46,467 nucleotides of DNA from Rhizobium sp. Q54 (GTDB lineage Bacteria > Pseudomonadota > Alphaproteobacteria > Rhizobiales > Xanthobacteraceae), in NCBI GenBank assembly GCA_945870035.1, contig CAMBQQ010000023.1:1-46467 (forward strand), given 5' to 3'. The notes beneath the pieces are model-generated. The model saw only the letters and a program-made list of their open reading frames with translations. It was not told where the DNA came from and did not search any database. Each line of letters starts with the position of its first letter. The first letter of the stretch is position 1. The translations under genes were made by a program, and so were the position numbers. Positions 744 to 18,952 of this stretch are shown piece by piece.

Positions 744-977
744 ATGGATATCCGCGAAGTCTTCGCTGCGAATGTCAGAAAACTGCGTAATGACCGCGGT
801 CTGACCCAAGACGACCTCGCCTATGAGGCGAAGGTCAGCCGCGGCTACCTTAGTCAGCTGGAAAAAGGTGTCTTTTACGCGAGTCTCAAGATTATCGATC
901 GGCTGGCAAAGGTCTTAAAAGTAGACCCAGCAATGCTTTTGGAACGTCCGTCTAAGCGGCGACCCAACAAGGGCTAA
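744..977 (+). CDS. Small Xre-family transcriptional regulator
   Basis: This 77-residue protein consists almost entirely of one Cro/C1-type helix-turn-helix (about residues 7-66): FAANVRKLRNDRGLTQDDLA, then SRGYLSQLEKG as the recognition helix and SLKIIDRLAKVLKVDPAMLL to close the fold. The size and layout match controller proteins of restriction-modification systems and small phage or island repressors. No restriction or methylase gene is visible beside it. I chose ATG 744 because the fold starts there; the frame is open further upstream to 471 but that part overlaps the divergent gene. There is no clear Shine-Dalgarno sequence, and the start codon sits inside a palindrome (739-756), which suggests autoregulation. 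Confidence 0.85.
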   Translation: MDIREVFAANVRKLRNDRGLTQDDLAYEAKVSRGYLSQLEKGVFYASLKIIDRLAKVLKVDPAMLLERPSKRRPNKG

Positions 978-1013
978 ATCCGCTGGAGAACCGGCATCGA
1001 CTGCCCTGCTCGC

Positions 1014-1343
1014 CTAGTATTCGTCCGCCAGCATGATCGTCATCACCCGCCGCGTGACAGAAGGGTTCGCTGGATCCGGCGAATCAAAACGCATCTCCAG
1101 ATCGTAGTAGTCCAGTTTAAAGAAAATCTGGGCGCCTTCCGCTTCAAAGGCCCCAAAATCGTGTTCTTCATGCGGATCATTGGCCTTACAGAAGGCGTCG
1201 TAGGTGGCGATGGTCTGGATGATCCGGCTCACTGCCCCTGCGCCTAGAGCGGCTATTCCCGGTGTGATGACAGCAGTGCCACCTGTCAGGTGACGGCGAA
1301 ACTCGTCGTTCAGAGTGCGCGTCTTTGTGGTCGCATTCGACAT
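1014..1343 (-). CDS. DUF3768 family protein
   Basis: The protein has 109 residues. The pattern near the N-terminus (LNDEFRRHLTGG, then VITPGIAALG at about residues 24-34) followed by an acidic DPHEEHDFGAFE segment, a KLDYYD segment and a C-terminal RRVMTIMLADEY is the DUF3768 signature. This is a soluble domain of unknown function found widely on plasmids, integrative elements and symbiosis islands of Hyphomicrobiales. It is on the minus strand just downstream of the 274-residue unknown, with about 40 bases between them, so the two may be co-transcribed. Family membership supports the reading of this region as mobile; it gives no biochemical function. Confidence 0.8.
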   Translation of the reverse strand: MSNATTKTRTLNDEFRRHLTGGTAVITPGIAALGAGAVSRIIQTIATYDAFCKANDPHEEHDFGAFEAEGAQIFFKLDYYDLEMRFDSPDPANPSVTRRVMTIMLADEY

Positions 1344-1382
1344 GCGTTAGTCCTTTTCAATTGTGCTGAAAGATTTGAGGCG

Positions 1383-2207
1383 TTACTTGTCGGCGGCGGC
1401 AGGCGCCGGCTGCGCTGGTATCTGCGGGCAGAGCAAGGCAATCTGAGAAATTGACCGCGCGAACTTGGGTACCGTTTTGAAGTCACGCCATCGCAGGACG
1501 ACGCTCACATCGTCGACCTCCGCGATCAAGGCTTCCCACCAACCCTCGGTGGCGCTCTGTTGGCCGAGGACCAAATGGCCTGGCTTGAGACTGGCAAAGT
1601 CCTTTGAAAGGCCGGGCGCCGCATCCGCGAGGTCCGCGGGGGACGAATAAGCAGGCGTGTACGGCAGCGCGACCGCGTAGCGATGGCGCGTTACCGTGAT
1701 GTCAGGATAGTCACGCGATCGAAGGAGGAGCATTTCTCCGTCGACGGCCTCGACCGCAGTAGGCCAGAAACCAAGGCTCGGATCGTCCGCCTGGGCGATA
1801 ACGACATGCCCTATCTTGATATGATCCCAGTTGGCTGCCAACTTTTCCTGCGGAAACAGCGGCATGGGTTTAGGCGCCTCAAGTTTTAGCGCATTGAGAA
1901 GCTCTCGGAACCGTTTGGGTTGAATGTTCGGTATAAACTCCGATCCGCTCGCGTGAACCTGCCCAGCCTTAATGCCCATTAGAGCTGGGGCAATCATGTC
2001 GAACTTTGCGACGTATACAGCTAAATTCAATTGGCTGGCGGCTTGACGCGCGAGTTTAAAGTCGGCCTCCGCAAACAGCCCCGCGCGTGGCTTGCCTTCT
2101 TCGTCATAGCCATAGGCCAGCATTACCAGCTCGGCCTTCGCGTTCGGCTTAGCGGGAGGCGCTTTGATCTTGGCCGGTGTCGACTTAGGTTTCGTCTTCT
2201 TTTTCAT
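1383..2207 (-). CDS. Island protein of unknown function, 274 residues
   Basis: The start at 2207 is chosen because AGGAG lies seven bases upstream; the frame is open 21 codons further but that part crosses a terminator-like hairpin. The protein opens with a strongly basic, Lys/Pro-rich tail (MKKKTKPKSTPAKIKAPPAK), which could contact nucleic acid. It then has an alpha/beta segment (about 25-110) and two similar stretches, IKIGHVVIAQADDPSLGFWPTAV and LKPGHLVLGQQSATEGWWEALI. These look like an internal duplication of a small beta-barrel-like unit, each followed by a hydrophobic strand and an RxRD/RWRD element (LLLRSRDYPD and VVLRWRDFKT). I know no function. The repeated GHvV-W pattern recalls Tudor/SH3-like or KOW-like units, but that is a guess. 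Confidence 0.75.
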   Translation of the reverse strand: MKKKTKPKSTPAKIKAPPAKPNAKAELVMLAYGYDEEGKPRAGLFAEADFKLARQAASQLNLAVYVAKFDMIAPALMGIKAGQVHASGSEFIPNIQPKRFRELLNALKLEAPKPMPLFPQEKLAANWDHIKIGHVVIAQADDPSLGFWPTAVEAVDGEMLLLRSRDYPDITVTRHRYAVALPYTPAYSSPADLADAAPGLSKDFASLKPGHLVLGQQSATEGWWEALIAEVDDVSVVLRWRDFKTVPKFARSISQIALLCPQIPAQPAPAAADK

Positions 2208-2233
2208 CGTAGGCTCCTCTTTGAAATGCAAAA

Positions 2234-2253
2234 GGGCTCCCGATCGGGAGCCC
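2234..2253 (-). terminator. Perfect palindrome followed by a T-run on the minus strand
   Basis: GGGCTCCCGA and TCGGGAGCCC form a perfect 20-base palindrome, followed on the minus strand by TTTT. It lies about 33 bases after the stop of the glycosylase-like gene (2287) and before the ribosome-binding site of the next gene at 2207. It should therefore end the integrase-glycosylase transcript. Confidence 0.75.
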
Positions 2254-2286
2254 CATAAAGTCGTCTTCAATCATCTCCGCCTTACG

Positions 2287-3354
2287 CTAACTCACATTGA
2301 TAGACCTTCTCCGGCAGCGTCTGAACACTCGGCAGTTTGCTCGCTGCACGCACCGAGTGCCGTCTTTGATCCGAACACTGTTACAGATTGAGAATCCATC
2401 TTGTGCGCACCAGCGCCATAAAGCGTGCTGGACGAACCGAGGGAAATTACGCGGGTATGTGTCATTGAACTCGCGGGCATCGATCTGACCCGAGATGCGC
2501 TCGATGATCTCCGCGCAACCGTTTTTGCCGTAACACCGCTCACCGTAGTGATGCTGCGCGCCGAAGCTACGCAGAATGCCGGTCCGGTGTAAAAGCTTGT
2601 GAACGAGAGTGTCGATGGCAATCATGCCCCCACCGACATCCCTCCAATGCGTCCATTTGACAGGCGCGGCCAGAAGCAGCGATGCAAGGGTCATGCTCAG
2701 CACCTTGTCGGCAATTCCATAGACCTGACGAAGCGGGCCGATCAGCGACTCGCGCAGTCGCCTCGAATATGTCTCCGGGACCGAGCGTGGAACAGATTGC
2801 AGTTGACCACTCACCCACCCAACAAGGTCACCGTTGGCGACGTCGCGCATAAAAAAGTACAGCGAGTAAGCTGTCTGGTTTAGGCGCCCATTGCGCAGCA
2901 CGTCCCTAGGAACCGGGCAGCGCGCAAAGTGCTCCGGACGCTCACACGTTTTCTTCGATTTCGAGTATCCACACCGCGAGAAAGTATGGTATCCGCGGAG
3001 CTTCGGACAGGACGGCCCCTCGGCCAATCTCGAGGCGATGTTATCCCACGTCGGCGCACCGTTGATCTCCATGTAGGCCGCAGCGGTGCGATCGGAAACG
3101 CCCTGAAACGAGAGAGCGCGTACCAGCCAATTAAACAGAGCCGGCGTATCCTGCTGCGCAACAGCTTCACCGAGCGGTTTCGTCGCACCCTCTGACTGGA
3201 CATGCTCCAGCAAGCGATGCGATCCCGCGAGGCAACAAACCGGATACACGATATGCACCGCATGTCGAAGCGCGGCACTGGATGAAGTCGTAGTTCGTCT
3301 GGAATCAGCTGCCAGATGTATCTTACCCGTCCCAATTTTTTTATAGGAGGCCAA
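2287..3354 (-). CDS. HhH-GPD-like (DNA glycosylase superfamily-like) protein, overlapping the integrase
   Basis: The protein has up to 355 residues. The core VYGIADKVLSMTLASLLLA (about 211-229) followed by MIAIDTLVHKLLHRTGI (244-260) matches the helix-hairpin-helix and catalytic-Asp pattern of endonuclease III-type glycosylases, with Lys217 and Asp248 in the positions of the nucleophile and the general acid/base. QGVSDRTAAAY near residue 84 resembles the first helix of that fold. Two cysteine groups stand out: C116, C128, C137 and C146, and a C-terminal set (316, 324, 335, 341) that could bind a metal or Fe-S cluster. I recall close relatives annotated only as hypothetical in alphaproteobacteria. 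The frame begins with TTG at 3354, 14 bases inside the integrase end, so translation is probably coupled; the exact start is uncertain. The activity is inferred from motifs only. Confidence 0.7.
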   Translation of the reverse strand: MASYKKIGTGKIHLAADSRRTTTSSSAALRHAVHIVYPVCCLAGSHRLLEHVQSEGATKPLGEAVAQQDTPALFNWLVRALSFQGVSDRTAAAYMEINGAPTWDNIASRLAEGPSCPKLRGYHTFSRCGYSKSKKTCERPEHFARCPVPRDVLRNGRLNQTAYSLYFFMRDVANGDLVGWVSGQLQSVPRSVPETYSRRLRESLIGPLRQVYGIADKVLSMTLASLLLAAPVKWTHWRDVGGGMIAIDTLVHKLLHRTGILRSFGAQHHYGERCYGKNGCAEIIERISGQIDAREFNDTYPRNFPRFVQHALWRWCAQDGFSICNSVRIKDGTRCVQRANCRVFRRCRRRSINVS

Positions 3355-3916
3355 TCAAACGCCTCTGCGCCTCAGTATCGTACGCGATGTATTTTTCCGT
3401 GGTCTGGATCGATCGATGCCCCGCCAGCGCCTGGATATCTCGCAGCGAGCCGCCGGCCCTGTGGACCGATTTGGCCGCTCTCGTGATGAACGTGCGGCGC
3501 CCACTGTGCGACGTGCAGCCTTGTAATCCGATAGCAGTGTAAGCACCCTTGAAGAAATTGACTATCGATACGGGCGTCATTCGACCACCCCGCTCTGATC
3601 TCGCAACCGGTCCCACTCCGTTGCAGACACGCTTCAAGGCTTCGAGCGCGCTCCGCAGCTCAGGATGCATTGGAATGGTCCTGCCGTGCTTCTTTTTTGC
3701 TATTCGATCTTCCAGAGCGATGGTTGATCCCACGTTTCCGGAAGCATCCAGAACCATGCTCCAATCGAGTTTCGATATCTCCGCTGCGCGCAATCCTGAT
3801 TTGAAGCTCAGGAGCGCGATCACGCGGTTTCGCAGTGGATGTCGGCGGCGAGAGAGTTCGGAGAGAAGTAGTGCGATTTGGGGCGTGTCTAAAATCTTGG
3901 CTTGTCGGCCGGCCAT
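3341..3916 (-). CDS. Tyrosine recombinase, catalytic domain only
   Basis: The 191 residues cover only the C-terminal catalytic domain of phage-type integrases (about 300-400 residues are usual). The full set of active-site residues is visible: Arg43 in KSGLRAAE, Lys75/76 in KKKHGR, His137 and Arg140 in HSGRRTF, His167 in LAGHRS, and the nucleophile Tyr176 in TTEKYI. The N-terminal core-binding domain is absent. Such short XerD-like enzymes are common on rhizobial plasmids and islands. GAGAG lies five bases before ATG 3916. It is followed by a 14-base overlap with the HhH-GPD-like gene. It could mediate excision or integration at tRNA-Phe, but it lies about 6 kb from that site, so it may instead be a passenger recombinase. 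Confidence 0.9.
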   Translation of the reverse strand: MAGRQAKILDTPQIALLLSELSRRRHPLRNRVIALLSFKSGLRAAEISKLDWSMVLDASGNVGSTIALEDRIAKKKHGRTIPMHPELRSALEALKRVCNGVGPVARSERGGRMTPVSIVNFFKGAYTAIGLQGCTSHSGRRTFITRAAKSVHRAGGSLRDIQALAGHRSIQTTEKYIAYDTEAQRRLIGLL

Positions 3917-4207
3917 TCGCTCTCTTCGATTCGATGGCCTAGCCTAGCACAAAAAATTTGGCCGACATATGAGAATCGATTCATATCGACACGCCAAACT
4001 CGTGAAGAAACGTACGAAATCGACTGTGATTTCGCGCTTAGCGCGTCTACTTCGATGCGCTCAATTGAGATTGTCGGCGCGCCAAGTTCTGATGTACTCG
4101 GCGTGAGATCGAGCGGCGCGCCTATCGCGTCTTGCAACTCACAATGTTCGCGGTGGCGCGCCGATCTTCAGAAATTTATCACTATCGACCGTAGAAGGTT
4201 TCAGGCG
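3917..4207. other. Intergenic stretch upstream of the recombinase
   Basis: These 291 bases lie between the recombinase start and the end of the next minus-strand gene. I see no supportable gene. A short open frame on the minus strand (3889-4137) has no family signature and overlaps the recombinase start. GGCGCGCC occurs twice, near 4077 and 4115, and may be two halves of an inverted arrangement. The recombinase promoter must lie here, but I cannot place it. Confidence 0.4.
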
Positions 4208-5047
4208 TTAGTTTTTAAGTTGATCGGCATTCGGAAGTTGGGGCTTCACCGGCGTCTCCGCTCGTACGAAGTAGTTGAATGCCTCCTTTTTTTCAAATCC
4301 GACAACATCTAACCCTGCGAGAACATCGAAAGCCGGCACATCTCGTCTGTTGAGACCTGCAGCAACACCTGCCTTGGTGGGCTGCCACCGACGAATGCCG
4401 TCAGTGCCCAGGGCTCGACGCATTAATCCACGAGCCTGCAACTCATCAAGAATTTCGTCAATATCATCATCCCACGCCTGAGCGTCGGTTATACCGCACC
4501 ACGCGCCCTTTGGCGTTGCTATCATCAGGTCTTCTCCTTTCTCGCCTAAAACACAGCAAGCGTTTCCGATGCGCAGCATTTCAGAAACTGGATCACCGTC
4601 GTCAGGCTGCGTCTCGAACTCGCCGGGCAAATCGGTGAGAGAAAAAAACGTGATTCCCGCTCCATTATCGCGAAATGCCGCCTGACCTTCGAGAACCAGC
4701 ACCGTCAAGGTCAACAACGCGCGCAACTCAAGCCTACCGTCATTCCTCTGGAAAAATGGCTCTAGACAGGCCAACCCGCGATTGACAAGAAACTCCTCAA
4801 GTACAATGTCGCAAATAAACTCTGCGGGCTTTCCATTGCGATAGATCGGACCGGCGAATATCTGTGTATCCAAGGCGAGACGCCAGCTCGGCTGCTCTGC
4901 ATCCTCAAATTTGGCCCATCCTAGCGACTCGCATATTTTTAGGTCAGTCGGCGAAGGTGGCTTGCCCCAGAATTTTGTGAGTTCGGGATCGACTTTCACG
5001 TTGCGTTTCGCGTTGTATCGCAATTTCAGTTTTCGGTTATTCGACAT
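4208..5047 (-). CDS. Island protein with a C-terminal winged-helix-like segment
   Basis: This 279-residue protein starts at ATG 5047, preceded by GGAGG at good spacing. Residues 1-100 contain a basic N-terminus (KLKLRYNAKRNVK) and a mixed alpha/beta region. The middle is hydrophobic and helical (LRALLTLTVLVLEGQAAF). The C-terminal part has DEILDELQARGLMRR followed by IRRWQPTKAG, which resembles the helix-turn-strand-wing pattern of winged-helix proteins. The same pattern recurs in the two small paralogs at 6093 and 6546. The gene has its own upstream motif TTGTAAA 46 bases before the start codon, shared with its neighbour at 5148. No family is recognised, and the DNA-binding role is inferred. 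Confidence 0.65.
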   Translation of the reverse strand: MSNNRKLKLRYNAKRNVKVDPELTKFWGKPPSPTDLKICESLGWAKFEDAEQPSWRLALDTQIFAGPIYRNGKPAEFICDIVLEEFLVNRGLACLEPFFQRNDGRLELRALLTLTVLVLEGQAAFRDNGAGITFFSLTDLPGEFETQPDDGDPVSEMLRIGNACCVLGEKGEDLMIATPKGAWCGITDAQAWDDDIDEILDELQARGLMRRALGTDGIRRWQPTKAGVAAGLNRRDVPAFDVLAGLDVVGFEKKEAFNYFVRAETPVKPQLPNADQLKN

Positions 5048-5147: not shown

Positions 5148-5927
5148 TCAGTCCCGTCTGGCGTCGTCTGATCCGGAGGAGCCAAAGCGCTTTAGTCGCC
5201 CTCGCGGAAATTCCCGCAAAAGAAGGTCACGGGGGATTTCAGCTTTTTTGGTCATCGGTTTCATAAAGAACGGCACATCATGATCGCGACAGTCATGCAT
5301 CAGATTGCGAGCCCATTGTCGTTCAAAGACGCGGGACTTCGCGCTGGTCTCACCGCCGCAGATGACCCAGTCCGGTACTGGGCCGCGCACCGGCAGGACT
5401 AGCCCTCCGACAGGCCGCTCGTAGCTTATGAACCGGACTGCGGCAGGTATCTTGCTCAAGGTAGCCCAACGTCGGTCAAAGTCGTTCTGATCCGTAGCAG
5501 TCGTCCCGAGCCAGACGTTGCGCCACGGCCACGGACGTAAACCTTCAATCGCAAGCGGCAGCATCTTGGATAGGTTCTCGGGGCGCTCAGTCAGAAACAA
5601 CCAGTCGAGGCGGCGTGTTCTGTCGACCAGCCTGAACAGATCAGCGCGCCACCGCGGGGGCAAGGTCTCGTCACAGAGGTTGTCGGCGCAGGTAAACAGA
5701 ACTCGGCGCCGAACATCCTGCTTCTGAGCACGTTCGTTCCAAAGAAGTGGTTCATGCCAAATCGCCTCCGAGGCCCTAACTCGCTTACCGTCGGCGCTTA
5801 AACCCCGGCGTCTGAACTCATCCACTATCGACTCGTCATAGCGATAGTCACAATGCGACGATATCCTAGGAGTATCCGTCCAAGGCCAGAAGGTGTGGTC
5901 GGTCCAGTTAGTTTTGGGTGATCGCAT
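5148..5927 (-). CDS. DUF5131 (phage Gp37/Gp68) family protein lacking the cysteine cluster
   Basis: This 259-residue protein starts at ATG 5927 with GGAG upstream; 33 further in-frame codons upstream look untranslated. The family pattern is clear: NWTDHTFWPW near the N-terminus, PPRWRADLFRLV, LDWLFLTERPENL, NVWLGTTATDQNDFDRRW, AVRFISYERPVGG, DWVICGGETS and VPFFMKPM. DUF5131 proteins are encoded by phages and mobile elements and normally carry a GC-x-x-x-SPGC-x-x-C set of cysteines after the first motif, thought to bind a metal or Fe-S cluster. Here that stretch reads WTDTPRISSHCDYRYD and keeps only one of the three cysteines. The protein may have lost that activity or changed it. The gene has its own upstream motif and terminator. 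Confidence 0.8.
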   Translation of the reverse strand: MRSPKTNWTDHTFWPWTDTPRISSHCDYRYDESIVDEFRRRGLSADGKRVRASEAIWHEPLLWNERAQKQDVRRRVLFTCADNLCDETLPPRWRADLFRLVDRTRRLDWLFLTERPENLSKMLPLAIEGLRPWPWRNVWLGTTATDQNDFDRRWATLSKIPAAVRFISYERPVGGLVLPVRGPVPDWVICGGETSAKSRVFERQWARNLMHDCRDHDVPFFMKPMTKKAEIPRDLLLREFPRGRLKRFGSSGSDDARRD

Positions 5928-5972
5928 GATTTTGACTCCAAGCAGAAGCAAGCAGGTCGCCTGCGTGGAATC

Positions 5973-5980
5973 TTTACAAC
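5973..5980 (-). promoter_or_regulatory. Shared upstream motif, copy 2 (GTTGTAAA)
   Basis: On the minus strand GTTGTAAAGATTCC begins 46 bases before the DUF5131 start codon, exactly the spacing seen at copy 1. The region upstream is AT-rich (GTTAAAATGTGAATTTGTAC), unlike its surroundings. Confidence 0.5.
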
Positions 5981-6055
5981 GTACAAATTCACATTTTAAC
6001 ACGCGATGCCCACGGCGAACGTTCAATCAATTAAGAACGGCAACGCGTTAGGAGA

Positions 6056-6092: not shown

Positions 6093-6506
6093 CTACGACG
6101 ACCGCTTTTCAAAGAGGCCGGTTTCGTCTCTGAGGGTCTGCATCTGGTCCTTTCTCTCAAGCACGTTATCCAGGCCAAGTTCGGAGAAGGCATCGGTCAG
6201 AGCCTTATCGTATGATGCTAGAACAGATTTCTCACCCTTTCGCGTGAGGCACCAAAACCAGTCGTCTTCCTTTCGACGAAGACGGATCAAGCCGAGAGAC
6301 TCTAGTTCATAGACAATCTCGCGTCCGCAATTTTCATCTAGTTCGTAATCGCGGAGATCCTCGCAAAAGCTACCAGCAGTAATACAGAACCTCTCCTCGC
6401 CGTCGATCACTCTCATAATGATCTCTTTTTCTTTGCAAAGTTGCTCAAGCGCCTCATCGATCTCCTTGCTGTGCTTCTTTCCGCGAATTTCGCTTAGTAA
6501 AATCAT
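6093..6506 (-). CDS. Island protein, tandem paralog 1 (winged-helix-like)
   Basis: This 137-residue protein starts at ATG 6506 with GGAG seven bases upstream. Residues about 40-105 hold ITAGSFCEDLRDYELDENC, then REIVYELESLGLIRLRRKEDD and WFWCLTRKGEKS. The same block occurs in the neighbouring gene (6546-6980), with matching EDLR, LDENC, RE, YELES, LRR and W-W-T-G positions. The helix-strand-wing pattern suggests a winged helix. The N-terminus is charged and helical. It is 40 bases downstream of its paralog, so they are probably co-transcribed. Codon use is less GC-biased than in the chromosomal genes. I do not recognise the family. Confidence 0.7.
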   Translation of the reverse strand: MILLSEIRGKKHSKEIDEALEQLCKEKEIIMRVIDGEERFCITAGSFCEDLRDYELDENCGREIVYELESLGLIRLRRKEDDWFWCLTRKGEKSVLASYDKALTDAFSELGLDNVLERKDQMQTLRDETGLFEKRSS

Positions 6507-6545: not shown

Positions 6546-6980
6546 TCAAGCTGGGTCGCCGGCATGCCCGGCGGGATCGGCCTCCATCGCGGGGCCATCT
6601 CTTACATCCCCTAGGCCAAGTCGGCGTTGTAGTTGTTCGGTAAGACCGAGATCAACGAGGACGACGTGCAGAGGCTTTTCGTGCGAGCACAAACCTACCC
6701 TGCGACCAGCTAACGTCGGTTGCCAAACCCAGCCCGCCTCTGTTCGGCGAAGACCCAAGAAACCTCGGCTTTCAAGTTCATAGGCAAGCTCGCGGATGCA
6801 ATTTTCATCCAGGTCGGCTTCTCTGAGATCCTCAAACATGTACCCGGCACTCGGATAAAGCTTCTCTTCGCCCCCTCCGGTTATGACTTGATGCAGACGG
6901 CCTTCACTAATCAACCGATCCAATACGCCGGAATCATTACCGCAACGACGCATCTCAAACGATTGTTCGATATCGGACAT
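6546..6980 (-). CDS. Island protein, tandem paralog 2 (winged-helix-like)
   Basis: This 144-residue protein starts at ATG 6980, with a strong AGGAGG six bases upstream. The shared block reads SAGYMFEDLREADLDENC, RELAYELESRGFLGLRRTEAG and WVWQPTLAGRR, which aligns without gaps to the paralog at 6093. WQPT-AG also matches the 279-residue protein at 4208. The C-terminal tail (about 25 residues, Gly/Ala/Asp-rich) has no counterpart in the paralog. The upstream motif TTGTAAA lies 60 bases before the start. The duplication plus shared regulation suggests related but separate roles, perhaps as small DNA-binding regulators. This is inference. Confidence 0.7.
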   Translation of the reverse strand: MSDIEQSFEMRRCGNDSGVLDRLISEGRLHQVITGGGEEKLYPSAGYMFEDLREADLDENCIRELAYELESRGFLGLRRTEAGWVWQPTLAGRRVGLCSHEKPLHVVLVDLGLTEQLQRRLGLGDVRDGPAMEADPAGHAGDPA

Positions 6981-7125: not shown

Positions 7126-7776
7126 CTAACCGCAAGAAACCTCACCCACCGTTTTCGGCAGGACAATCAAATCATCGATCTCGAACCAAGGTCGCTTCAT
7201 CGACTTGAGAGCATAGTCAGTCACGTACCCAGGCAAATGCGTTACTCGTTCAACATGCACCTTGCGAAGCTTGCGCGTGGTGAATGCCCTTTGATGTTCC
7301 TGAAAATACTCATCGAGAAACTGCTTTATCTTGCCACGCCTATCCGCAGCACAAACCCCATGCATATGCATCCCGTCGTTTGTCGTAATCTCTTTGAAGG
7401 AAAGCGAACGTTTTGCCGATTTGTAGACCGACGTATCTGGGTACAAGAGCATAAATGGCAAAAGACGATGGCCCGCTTTAGTGCTGGGTTTCCTTGAAAC
7501 TCTCGTAGCTAAACGGGAATAAAAGATTTCGATCTCCTCTTTCATCCTCGCAACCTTGGTTTTCTTGTTATTGCCAACTGAGTTGAAGAGAAACGTAAGT
7601 ATGTAAACATCGTACCCCTGATTCCACTTCCTCTCTATGAGTTGCATGTAGCCATTCAATAGCTCTGCTCTGATAAGCAAATCAGCCTTTGACACTCTGT
7701 CAGCTTTAGTCTGCTTTGGTTCACCCCATGCATGTACTCGTTTTGTCTTTTTGCTGTTTTTTCGTGATTTTGACAT
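7126..7776 (-). CDS. HUH-endonuclease-like protein (possible replication or transfer initiator)
   Basis: The protein has 216 residues if it starts at ATG 7776. Three features in order recall HUH endonucleases and rolling-circle Rep proteins: a strand YILTFLFN (about 58-65, like Rep motif 1), HMHG with His137-x-His139 (motif 2), and DYALKSMK with Tyr188-x-x-Lys191 (motif 3). The N-terminus is very basic. I recall relatives in rhizobia annotated as hypothetical. The gene is visibly AT-richer than its neighbours, which suggests recent arrival. The start is unsure: the frame stays open to a TTG at 7929, and no good ribosome-binding site precedes 7776. Nicking activity is inferred from the motif order alone. 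Confidence 0.65.
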   Translation of the reverse strand: MSKSRKNSKKTKRVHAWGEPKQTKADRVSKADLLIRAELLNGYMQLIERKWNQGYDVYILTFLFNSVGNNKKTKVARMKEEIEIFYSRLATRVSRKPSTKAGHRLLPFMLLYPDTSVYKSAKRSLSFKEITTNDGMHMHGVCAADRRGKIKQFLDEYFQEHQRAFTTRKLRKVHVERVTHLPGYVTDYALKSMKRPWFEIDDLIVLPKTVGEVSCG

Positions 7777-7936
7777 GAGTATGCATATCGAAATCTTTCG
7801 ACTCCGAGCCTTTCCCTGATGAGGCGGGGCGCTATTTGGTTGGCAACTCCAACGGAAATTTCGTGATCCCGCAGTGCCTCTCTCGATGCTGGCGAGTCCA
7901 ACGGATCGATGAACGAGCGGCACTATCAATTAGCTA

Positions 7937-8861: not shown

Positions 8862-9557
8862 TTAAAGGGAGCGCCGGGAGCGTAAGTAGTCGCGGTGTCG
8901 GCGCTCCAATCGCTTCGCTTTTGATTCAATGGTGGCAAGGCCGATTGCACGATTCGCGACCTTCAGCGCGGCGCTTGGTACTGACAAATTGACATCAGCC
9001 TCCATCATGCGGGCCATCTCGGCCACTAGCGGCTCGTCGGCAGAACGAAAAGATCCGCTGCCAGGTGGCCTTCCAATTTTGGTCGCGTCCGGAAATGCGG
9101 CATCGAACCAATGCTTGAACTCGTTCTTCATGAGAAAAACTGGACGGGCTTTTCCTAAGATCACGCTGCCGGTCGGTCCGAAGAACGCGTTATCCGGATC
9201 GATGTGGGAGAACATCATTCCGTGCAGACATTCCAGCGGCGGCATCCATCCAGAAGTCGGAAGCTGCAAAATGATGCCCGAAGCGGGGTGAAGAACGCAC
9301 GCTGTGATGTTGCCAATCGCGAGTTGAGATCTGAATAAAATGTCCGCCGCTAGCTGACGAATAATCTCGTCCGAGTGTTCGAGGCCGTAGTCTTCTATTT
9401 CCGCTTGGCGGCACCCTTCGAGAAATCCGATCAAATCGGCGCCTTCAATTCGCTGGTAAAAGTTCGCGTCCTCGAATGCTTCCTGAACAATCAAATCGAA
9501 AGCGTCAGGCAAACTGATGGCGTCCAGCGGAATGAGATCGTCAGATTGCGCGGTCAT
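8862..9557 (-). CDS. Conserved-type island protein of unknown function
   Basis: This 231-residue protein starts at ATG 9557. The first 70 residues are acidic and helical (LPDAFDLIVQEAFEDANFYQRIEG). The middle has hydrophobic strands (ITACVLHPASGIILQLP) and the motif GRPPGSGSFRSADEPLVAEMARMM. The C-terminus is basic and helical (ESKAKRLERRHRDYLRSRRSL), suggesting nucleic-acid contact. No signal peptide or membrane segment is seen. It is the gene nearest to the tRNA-Phe end of the island and is followed after about 60 bases by the excisionase-like gene on the same strand. I do not recognise the family. Confidence 0.65.
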   Translation of the reverse strand: MTAQSDDLIPLDAISLPDAFDLIVQEAFEDANFYQRIEGADLIGFLEGCRQAEIEDYGLEHSDEIIRQLAADILFRSQLAIGNITACVLHPASGIILQLPTSGWMPPLECLHGMMFSHIDPDNAFFGPTGSVILGKARPVFLMKNEFKHWFDAAFPDATKIGRPPGSGSFRSADEPLVAEMARMMEADVNLSVPSAALKVANRAIGLATIESKAKRLERRHRDYLRSRRSL

Positions 9558-9814
9558 GCCAAATTATACGAGATAAATCCCGCACGTTCACGGACGTTCG
9601 CGGGCGGCCATTCCGTAGATGTTGTCTGGTCTTCAGCTGATCAAGGTGACCAATACGGTGTGTTTGTGACGGCAAGTCGATCATCACCACGTCGGCAGCA
9701 ATTCTTTTGCGTGGCACACCAGATTACTGCGCCCCCGGCGCGTCCCCCGGGGAAAACCCCGCTATCAGGAAATAGTACCGAGCTATAGAATGATAGATGT
9801 TTCAACATCTTAGA
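9558..9814. other. Island end: non-coding stretch next to tRNA-Phe
   Basis: No gene is supported here. The right end holds AGATGT-TTCA-ACATCT (9795-9810), a perfect 6-base hairpin 4 bases past the tRNA CCA, which could terminate tRNA-Phe. GCGCCCCCGGCGCG and CCCGGGGAAAACCCCG near 9730-9765 are further palindromic runs. I looked for a second copy of the tRNA 3' end within the window and did not see one, so the other attachment site must lie to the left of base 1 or be lost. Confidence 0.5.
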
Positions 9815-9890
9815 TGGTGCCCGGGGGCGGGATCGAACCACCGACACTGCGATTTTCAATCGCATGCTCTACCAACTGAGCTACCCGGGC
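9815..9890 (-). tRNA. tRNA-Phe (GAA)
   Basis: The 76-base gene on the minus strand runs from GCCCGGGTAGCTCAG to CCCGGGCACCA with CCA encoded. The acceptor stem GCCCGGG/CCCGGGC pairs perfectly. The anticodon loop TTGAAAA gives GAA (Phe), and the T-loop GGTTCGATCCC is present. Its 3' end faces the island on the left, the usual geometry for integration at a tRNA gene. It is the last element of the yacG operon region. Confidence 0.95.
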
Positions 9891-9991
9891 GCCGACGCCT
9901 TCCCGAAACGGCCGGGGCAAGGCGAGCGCCGCGTTATAGAGGGCCGCTTCTGGCCTGTCCAGAAGCCAATCCGGCCCGTCGAAACAAAGGT

Positions 9992-10567
9992 TTAGACCCC
10001 GATCGCGGCCCGGAACCGGGCTTTCAGCACGGTGCCGTCGCGCTCCGGCAGCACCCGCGGCGGATCGGCGATGGCAATGGCGAGGCGCGCAAACAGCGGG
10101 CCGGACAGCTCCTTGAGCCGGGCGGCGAGATCGGCCAAAGCCGCCTCGTCCGCGACATCGAGACAGGTAGCGATGCCGCAGGAGCGGGCGACGCCGAGCA
10201 GGTCGACGCCGCCTTTATGCGTATGGCTCGGCTGCATGCCGGTCTCGCCGTAGTGGCCATTGTCGAAGACGACGACGGCGAGGTTTTGCGGCTGCTTGAT
10301 GCCAATAGTGGCGAGCGCACCCATCCCCATCAGCATCTCGCCATCGCCGGTGACGACCAGGACGCGCTTGTCCGGTTGCGCCAGCGCAAGACCGAGGCCG
10401 ATCATCGCGGCGCCGCCCATCGCGCCCCAGAGATAAAAGTTGCGGTCGTTGTCGCCGGCGGCAGCGAGATCCCAGCAAGTCGAGCCGAGGCCGGGAATGA
10501 CCAGAAGGTCGTCCTTGCGATCGGCCAGCAAGGTTGCCATCGCGGCGCGGCGTTCCAGTCCGCTCAT
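9992..10567 (-). CDS. ThDP-dependent decarboxylase, PP-domain subunit (sulfopyruvate/phosphonopyruvate decarboxylase beta-like)
   Basis: This 191-residue protein matches the C-terminal thiamine-diphosphate (PP) domain of 2-oxo acid decarboxylases. GDGEMLMGMGALATIG followed by VVVFDNGHYGETG is the ThDP/Mg binding motif (GDG to N, about 28 residues apart). The start at ATG 10567 overlaps the stop of the upstream subunit (ATGA), so the two are translationally coupled. The split into separate PYR and PP subunits is that of ComD/ComE sulfopyruvate decarboxylase. Some phosphonopyruvate decarboxylases are single-chain relatives. The substrate is not known from sequence. Context with an AMP-dependent ligase suggests a small 2-oxo acid to aldehyde or acid route. 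Confidence 0.8.
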   Translation of the reverse strand: MSGLERRAAMATLLADRKDDLLVIPGLGSTCWDLAAAGDNDRNFYLWGAMGGAAMIGLGLALAQPDKRVLVVTGDGEMLMGMGALATIGIKQPQNLAVVVFDNGHYGETGMQPSHTHKGGVDLLGVARSCGIATCLDVADEAALADLAARLKELSGPLFARLAIAIADPPRVLPERDGTVLKARFRAAIGV

Positions 10568-11094
10568 TTGGTCCACACTTTCTTGCCGATCAATTGCTGC
10601 GACAACAACAAAGCGGCGATGCGCTCGTCGCCGAAGACGTGCTGCACGGCGCGTTCGGCCAGACCTTCGACTTCTTCAGGCTTTGTCGCGCGATAGATTT
10701 CCGCTTCGCTCAAGCGCAGCACCGGATCGACGATAGAGCCCATCGGCTCCTGCCATGGATTGAACTCTTCCCACTCGCCGCGCATGGTGATCATCATCAA
10801 CAGCGGAAAGCGGCACGAGCGCGCCAGCGACAGCATGTTGATGCAATTGCCGACGCCGCTCGACTGCATCAGCAGCACCGCGCGTTGCCCGCCGAGCCAG
10901 GCGCCGGCGGCGAGCGCGACGCCTTCCTCCTCGGTGGTCAGCACCACGTCGTGAATGTCGGGATCGGCGCGGCAGCGGTCGATCAAGCGCGCGTGGCCGG
11001 CATCGGGCACATAGCCAACCTGGCGGATGCCGGCGCGTTTGAGTGTGCCGTAAAGTTTCTCCGGCCAGTCGACGGTCGCGGTCGGCGCATTCAT
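10564..11094 (-). CDS. ThDP-dependent decarboxylase, PYR-domain subunit (ComD-like alpha)
   Basis: This 176-residue protein is the N-terminal pyrimidine-binding domain of a ThDP enzyme. VGYVPDAGHARLI is the first strand-helix. VVLTTEEEGVALAAGAWLGG contains the conserved Glu that activates ThDP. AVLLMQSSGVGNCINML and FPLLMMITMRGEW are the standard core strands. It ends in the ATGA overlap with the PP-domain subunit and begins 4 bases inside the end of yacG, so the three genes are coupled. Together the two subunits should form a heteromeric decarboxylase of the sulfopyruvate/phosphonopyruvate type. Confidence 0.8.
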   Translation of the reverse strand: MNAPTATVDWPEKLYGTLKRAGIRQVGYVPDAGHARLIDRCRADPDIHDVVLTTEEEGVALAAGAWLGGQRAVLLMQSSGVGNCINMLSLARSCRFPLLMMITMRGEWEEFNPWQEPMGSIVDPVLRLSEAEIYRATKPEEVEGLAERAVQHVFGDERIAALLLSQQLIGKKVWTK

Positions 11095-18807: not shown

Positions 18808-18952
18808 TCTAGTCGCCCCGGCTGCCCTGTTGGAGAATTCCGGGCCGATCTATGGACCGCCGGACGCCCTCCTGCAAAGCACAAACTGCCGGAGGGTTAC
18901 CATCACTGGCCTGGCAAATAAGGCAAAAACCGGTTCCGGCCAGCGGGCAGGA

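Follow-up and report, generated by a model that had tools for sequence, protein, structure and literature searches.

GPD, a protein encoded in the stretch of DNA analysed here, represents a DNA-glycosylase-like family that lives on mobile DNA, has invariant presumed catalytic residues and was overlooked by the sequence libraries tried. It is a remote HhH-GPD family rather than an ortholog of Nth (endonuclease III), and it has diverged past sequence detection. GPD adjoins INT, a stripped-down tyrosine recombinase, and the pair poses a testable question: why would an integrating element keep its own base-excision enzyme beside such a recombinase? It is quite plausible that GPD is a lysine-type HhH-GPD glycosylase/AP-lyase that belongs to the element core, shares a transcript with INT in the main clade and likely processes element DNA. 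The pairing suggests that removal of a base may be one step in the life cycle of such elements or in their defense against phages. If correct, either element DNA processing or phage defense by a glycosylase that does not have the Brig1 fold would be new.

The INT-GPD gene pair

The window, meaning the whole stretch analysed, is contig C23 (46,467 bases) of a draft genome in 189 contigs (G000). INT (3341..3916, minus strand) encodes a 191-aa tyrosine recombinase that is nearly a catalytic domain alone and matches Pfam Phage_integrase. GPD (2287..3354, minus strand) encodes an HhH-GPD-like DNA glycosylase with two cysteine clusters, in which K217 and D248 are presumed catalytic. The GPD ORF spans 355 aa from a TTG codon, from which the numbering of K217 and D248 counts; a start at this TTG gives a 14-base overlap with the end of INT. 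By eye, an AGAGG stretch lies just 5' of the TTG; the GTG codons at 3258 and 3249 are alternative starts. Both ORFs and their overlap are thus as described by a sequence-only reading of this DNA. The translational coupling which that reading proposed is not a conserved property of the pair, as only 5 of 34 loci have a first GPD start codon that does not lie beyond the INT stop.

INT matches Phage_integrase over residues 9-180 (E 2.2e-18). R43 and K74 are present in 33 of 34 INT sequences, and H137, R140, H167 and Y176 in all 34 (window included; one row is a 73-aa fragment). By sequence, INT can be assigned to the tyrosine recombinases, with a catalytic domain that has the R, K, H, R, H and Y residues. 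The core-binding domain of simple recombinases was not found in INT, whose Pfam match begins at residue 9 of 191. The short length is typical of the group, the median INT ORF being 192 residues (34 sequences).

Predicted fold and catalytic residues of GPD

An AlphaFold2 model of GPD, built with a 43-sequence alignment as input, has a pLDDT of 90.7 and a pTM of 0.88. A Foldseek comparison of the model with the PDB gave no match at an E value of 0.001, with human OGG1 ranked eighth (E 3.5). When Foldseek's 828 best chains were compared by VIA-align, the best structural match was endonuclease III (1orn; Z 13.1, 3.4 Å, 201 aligned residues), a Z to be read with the caution that mostly helical models may reach about 13-14 without a clear relative. 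HhH-GPD DNA glycosylases, by name, make up 45 of the 50 matches listed; the queuosine-salvage protein DUF2419 accounts for the remaining five. There is no uracil-DNA-glycosylase among the 50 matches listed, a listing that rules no fold out. By its fold, GPD is predicted to belong to the HhH-GPD superfamily, with a two-domain, all-helical core. The sequence-only reading had proposed this core, and the structural comparison, with endonuclease III as the top match, bears it out instead of pointing to its absence.

The GPD profile was also aligned by hhalign to 12 Nth-like sequences that had been chosen by motif in related genomes. The GIADK of GPD aligned with the GVGRK of Nth and IAIDT aligned with IAVDT, placing K217 on the Nth lysine and D248 on the Nth aspartate. 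The score was 29.7, compared to a maximum of 25.4 in 150 column shuffles and 13.4 for the reversed alignment. The hhalign probability was just 11.8%, and a forced global hhalign comparison of GPD with Nth gave no meaningful alignment. K217 and D248 are each invariant (43/43 sequences, window included); the alignment has 33 invariant columns among 330. In the model, whose numbering begins at residue 26, K217 becomes residue 192 and falls at the beginning of helix 191-203, and D248 becomes residue 223, immediately ahead of helix 224-232. A hairpin lysine of the bifunctional type and a putative catalytic aspartate, both recognized in the earlier reading, are therefore retained in the Nth register and conserved throughout the alignment.

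Sequence libraries gave little on GPD. The best Pfam (E 0.11) and NCBIfam (E 0.045) matches were at chance level and below cut-off, and neither PHROGs nor PADLOC gave a match at E 1. PF00730 is absent from the seven families matched by any of the 43 GPD members at E 1. One search of PDB sequences was empty, and another gave only two chance-level cytochrome bc1 chains. It is conceivable that the helical model resembles HhH-GPD proteins by arrangement only, and that GPD is instead, for example, a metal-binding or iron-sulfur DNA protein. The lack of a significant Foldseek match and of a PF00730 match would fit, as would a Z inside the range cautioned for helical models. However, the predominance of HhH-GPD glycosylases among the listed matches (45/50), together with an independent sequence test that puts the lysine and aspartate in register at a score above all 150 shuffles, makes this explanation very improbable. 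Housekeeping repair is an unneeded role for GPD, since the genome carries two PF00730 genes besides it.

Cysteine clusters

The two cysteine clusters pointed out from the sequence hold across the family. Nine of the 11 clustered cysteines (C116, C128, C137, C146, C274, C280, C316, C324 and C335) are invariant in 43/43 sequences, and the remaining two, C341 and C347, occur in 42/43. The iron-sulfur motif of the Nth/EndoIII subfamily is C-x6-C-x2-C-x5-C, which is present in the 12 Nth ORFs selected by that motif. The C-terminal spacing in the GPD of the window is C-x7-C-x10-C-x5-C-x5-C, which does not match the subfamily motif.

Distribution of GPD

A scan of one genome per species yielded 50 GPD loci. 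The hosts are mostly Bradyrhizobium, Afipia and other Hyphomicrobiales, and also include Methylobacterium, Microvirga, Methylocystis and Paracoccus. Other names (Formivibrio, Pseudonocardiales) appear on a few MAG records; the Pseudonocardiales contig has a twin filed under Hyphomicrobiales. Counting the genome of the window, GPD matched in 4 of 100 near relatives and, across the class, in 2 of 385 genomes, the other one of the two being a C-terminal fragment. Such sporadic spread fits a mobile gene. A tblastn search found GPD in seven plasmid records of Bradyrhizobium and Paracoccus. The family seemed to the sequence-only reading to be annotated only as hypothetical, and "hypothetical protein" is the annotation in six of these seven records, the seventh having none. 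One 573-kb plasmid of Bradyrhizobium japonicum carries two copies of INT plus a GPD that diverges from the family ahead of the final cysteines (L101 and L004), adjoining insertion-sequence transposase genes.

GPD had no match among phages, and none among viral contigs with either the single sequence or the alignment as query. A Foldseek search of viral models with the GPD model gave nothing at E 0.001; a viral 3-methyladenine glycosylase ranked third (E 1.8).

Gene order around GPD

Neighborhoods were compared for 47 non-redundant full-length GPD members, window included. Duplicates (L001, L009, L010, L011, L037 and L047), fragments of fewer than 280 aa (such as L002, L007, L056-L058, L060 and L061) and L051, which has a stop inside the GPD frame, were left out before counting. 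The 43-row GPD alignment contains neither loci on plasmids nor those from genomes without a name. Of the 46 loci for which 1.2 kb or more of sequence upstream is available, 33 have INT at most 2 kb upstream of GPD in the same orientation; the association of the two genes noted in the earlier reading is thus a frequent one. Downstream, where at least 3 kb are available, a gene termed TUD follows GPD in 28/35 loci and a DUF3768 gene is present in 29/35; two Paracoccus plasmids have DUF3768 placed between INT and GPD. This gene order recurs across GPD loci while the remaining neighbors vary, which argues for a core function for GPD.

In the window, TUD (1383..2207, minus strand, probable ATG at 2207) encodes a protein with a C-terminal Tudor-like domain. 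The TUD model has a pLDDT of 79.2 and a pTM of 0.59. Its C-terminal 60 residues match Tudor (TDRD3; Z 8.3, a value near the noise level of the tool, 1.9 Å, 55 aligned residues), and nearly all structural matches listed are Tudor, chromo, agenet or related domains. The match likely names the fold predicted for TUD, not its function. The DUF3768 protein is encoded at 1014..1343 on the minus strand (PF12599, E 3.3e-32), and a convergent XRE-type regulator at 744..977 on the plus strand, as part of ORF 471-977 (HTH_3, E 2.1e-11). XRE-type homologs occur within 11 kb of GPD in 25/61 loci and lie on the strand opposite GPD in 23 of these 25.

On the other side of the pair, 5148-6026 encodes a DUF5131 protein that matches the PADLOC candidates PDC-M41B and PDC-M30B and has relatives near GPD in several loci. 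Positions 6093-6506 and 6546-6980 encode adjacent small paralogues (43% identical), the first without a Pfam match above cut-off. Homologs of the island protein encoded at 7126..7929 (minus strand; here the G7126 type) lie near GPD in seven other loci. This product has a weak REP_ORF2-G2P match (E 0.35) and, by eye, HxH and YxxxK-like stretches; it is possibly an HUH-type replication protein. Longer integrase-like genes of one of two clusters occur within 11 kb of GPD in 13/61 loci. Phage_integrase is matched by one cluster; the other has eight members, six of which resemble the 420-aa integrase of the island described below closely enough to match it.

Transcription and covariation of INT and GPD

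A terminator-like hairpin lies after GPD and ahead of TUD (2233..2254, minus strand). A scan of window positions 900-4300 gave three terminator-like sites, compared to 3.7 in shuffles, and no promoter-like site. The window scan is no richer than the shuffles, and the informative hairpin evidence is therefore the comparison across loci. Defined as a stem of at least 6 followed by a T-rich stretch within 300 bases past GPD, a hairpin occurs in 24/47 loci, whereas 0.3 are expected from shuffles and 2/47 were found within part of the GPD gene itself. A stricter search after GPD gave 10/47 loci versus 0.02 expected. The INT-GPD junction has a hairpin in 0/33 loci, with 0.17 expected by chance. The presence of a hairpin after GPD and its absence at the INT-GPD junction make INT and GPD look co-transcribed. 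Judged from these sequences, INT-GPD is probably one transcription unit and TUD-DUF3768 the next. Alternatively, the hairpin could serve TUD as an attenuator instead of ending the INT-GPD transcript.

Pairwise distances of INT and GPD are correlated (r 0.78, 33 loci, permutation 0.001). TUD and GPD distances give r 0.81 (38 loci) and other pairs 0.66 to 0.71; each of these values reaches the permutation limit of 0.001. As all tested pairs correlate (0.66 to 0.81), common descent alone would suffice, and these values do not separate co-adaptation from it.

GPD without INT and INT without GPD

The tie between GPD and a recombinase is not strict in either direction. INT was undetected in 13/46 loci. 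In the GPD tree, 14 of 47 rows are tagged as lacking INT. Among them is L026, which is outside the INT count because no sequence upstream of its GPD is available. The tree requires three gains or losses of INT. Ten of the 14 rows make one group with support of 90/68, which is not strong. Its ten full-length members come from Methylobacterium, Microvirga, Methylocystis, Lichenifustis and Lichenibacterium, and all ten have a DUF927, G7126-type or, by eye, replication-like gene upstream of GPD. That GPD is kept near replication-like genes where INT is missing points to processing of element DNA.

Conversely, relatives of INT occur in 144 plasmid records of Piscirickettsia (P. salmonis), at about 45% identity among the matches listed, and in two of Skermanella; no GPD match was found at 1e-5 in these Piscirickettsia or Skermanella records. 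On a plasmid of Paracoccus marcusii, INT and DUF3768 occur with no GPD in 12.6 kb. Among the 100 near relatives, the INT matches of at least 59% identity adjoin GPD (3/3, including that of the window), and five INT matches at 34-40% have no GPD within about 1.5 kb. The genome of the window itself has a second short recombinase (G000:C135:736-1281, L099) that is 40% identical to INT and has no adjoining GPD.

Since INT has nearly nothing ahead of its catalytic domain, GPD might be a catalytically inactive HhH DNA-binding accessory that supplies the grip of the missing core-binding domain. The apparent shared transcription unit and the correlated divergence of INT and GPD would be expected of such partners. 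Nevertheless, an invariant lysine and aspartate (43/43) are unexpected in a dead enzyme, the group of ten retains GPD without INT, and the P. marcusii plasmid has INT without GPD, which together leave an inactive accessory improbable. Similarly improbable is a reading in which base excision is itself part of site-specific recombination: GPD would recognize a particular base or modification located in or close to the recombination sites, and its nick or abasic site would license, direct or protect the reaction of INT.

The tRNA-Phe island and its defense genes

The copy of GPD in the window is part of a genomic island at a tRNA-Phe gene (9815-9890). The 48-base att core (9814..9861, minus strand) forms the very 3' end of tRNA-Phe and marks the island boundary. 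Among 42 other members of the genus, 28 have a best match to window positions 9000-11000 that starts at 9812-9815; in one of the 28 (G414), the contig itself starts at the tRNA-Phe boundary. A perfect copy of the 48-base att lies on a second contig, at G000:C19:13170-13217. In genome G397, the sequence past this copy is on the same contig as the tRNA flank, with order kept and about 6.7 kb apart, and the sequence past the C19 copy therefore looks chromosomal. We infer that the island comprises C23:1-9814, the part in the window, and continues with C19:1-13169. With a direct att repeat, chromosome on both sides and an integrase, it is a tRNA-integrated genomic island whose two contigs are joined by inference.

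No clean empty site was found. In the stretches searched at the tRNA-Phe sites of G397 and G386, 0/12 island proteins were matched at 1e-8, and the sole match at the site of G407 was a 28% relative of the 420-aa integrase. A second copy of the tRNA end was not found in the searched stretches of 13 other loci and the window. The 420-aa integrase is of the arm type and adjoins the C19 att copy; INT is thus not the evident integrase of the island.

C23 and C19 start with the same 149 bases (98% over 164), and an inverted repeat thus flanks the gap between them. These shared starts at first suggested an invertible segment, but an inversion by INT is not claimed. A 34-base part of the repeat recurs on C85 in both orientations (132-165 and inverted at 18849-18882), which transposon ends fit better than an invertible segment.

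The C19 part encodes a C5 methyltransferase, homologs of MzaB, MzaC, MzaD and MzaE, and an AspBHI/Mrr-type methyl-directed nuclease; these genes span G000:C19:1140-11140 (locus L123). At 1e-15, PADLOC gave 70 families for 100 of the 288 GPD-neighbor ORFs and 3 for 100 of the 184 control ORFs, the controls being from two genomes of the genus. Among the 25 of the 70 families listed, 24 are GajB helicase models, each matched by at most three proteins. With a single helicase behind 24 of the 25, the ratio of 70 to 3 overstates the enrichment. Defense genes are present on the island of the window, and evidence for them on other GPD islands is thin.

These genes raise the possibility that GPD is an anti-phage or anti-plasmid effector that, like Brig1, Brig3 or restriction glycosylases, acts on incoming DNA by excising a modified or unprotected base, perhaps with TUD as a helper. 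MzaB-E homologs, a methyltransferase and a methyl-directed restriction enzyme on the same island, the PADLOC counts and the persistence of GPD where INT is missing are all consistent with such an effector. So is the existence of anti-phage glycosylases, to which the sequence-only reading had pointed. This precedent stands in part: Brig1 and Brig3 exist, but their fold is another one, as the available excerpts of the reports place both in the uracil-DNA-glycosylase superfamily (PMC11078745, PMC13160076). Moreover, GPD lies within the conserved order with INT and outside the variable cargo, it has no PADLOC match, and 24 of the 25 PADLOC families listed are GajB helicase models on few proteins. 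An effector is possible, but rather unlikely, and base excision as an element-core function is narrowly preferred over phage defense.

Proposed role of GPD

The sequence-only reading put forward two candidate roles for GPD, repair of recombination intermediates and attack on modified phage DNA. In the preferred reading, GPD would be a core gene of alphaproteobacterial islands and plasmids instead of part of their variable cargo. It would flip out and remove a base from DNA; K217 may then form a Schiff base, with D248 as the activating residue, and GPD would nick the strand. Its job would be the processing of the DNA of the element itself during recombination or replication, whether by removal of a lesion or modified base or by nicking, and not housekeeping repair.

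Comparison with known systems

By its predicted fold, GPD joins a known superfamily; as far as the literature searches reach, neither the family nor its pairing with a minimal recombinase was found. For DUF3768, the literature search found no publication. A parallel with the abasic-site SRAP protein of strand-biased circularizing elements was considered and dropped, as Srap is a recombination auxiliary there according to the available part of the source (PMC10214605).

GPD is most similar to Nth and other lysine-type HhH-GPD enzymes in its predicted fold, GxxxK hairpin, VDT-type aspartate and C-terminal cysteine cluster. Unlike Nth, it is about 330 aa rather than about 220, has an extra N-terminal C4 site and another C-terminal cysteine spacing, lacks a PF00730 match and is located on mobile DNA. 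Like GPD, Brig1 and Brig3 are, in the excerpts available, of glycosylase type and outside housekeeping repair, some being among defense genes; Brig1 is termed monofunctional there (PMC11078745, PMC13160076).

INT shares with simple tyrosine recombinases a catalytic domain with the conserved R, K, H, R, H and Y. According to the available text of PMC8138268, such recombinases usually consist of core-binding and catalytic domains, whereas INT has about eight residues ahead of the Pfam catalytic match. Finally, the island resembles tRNA islands with an arm-type integrase in its insertion at a tRNA 3' end, its 48-bp att duplicate and its 420-aa integrase at the far att. It differs from them in having a second, short recombinase adjoining a glycosylase-like gene.
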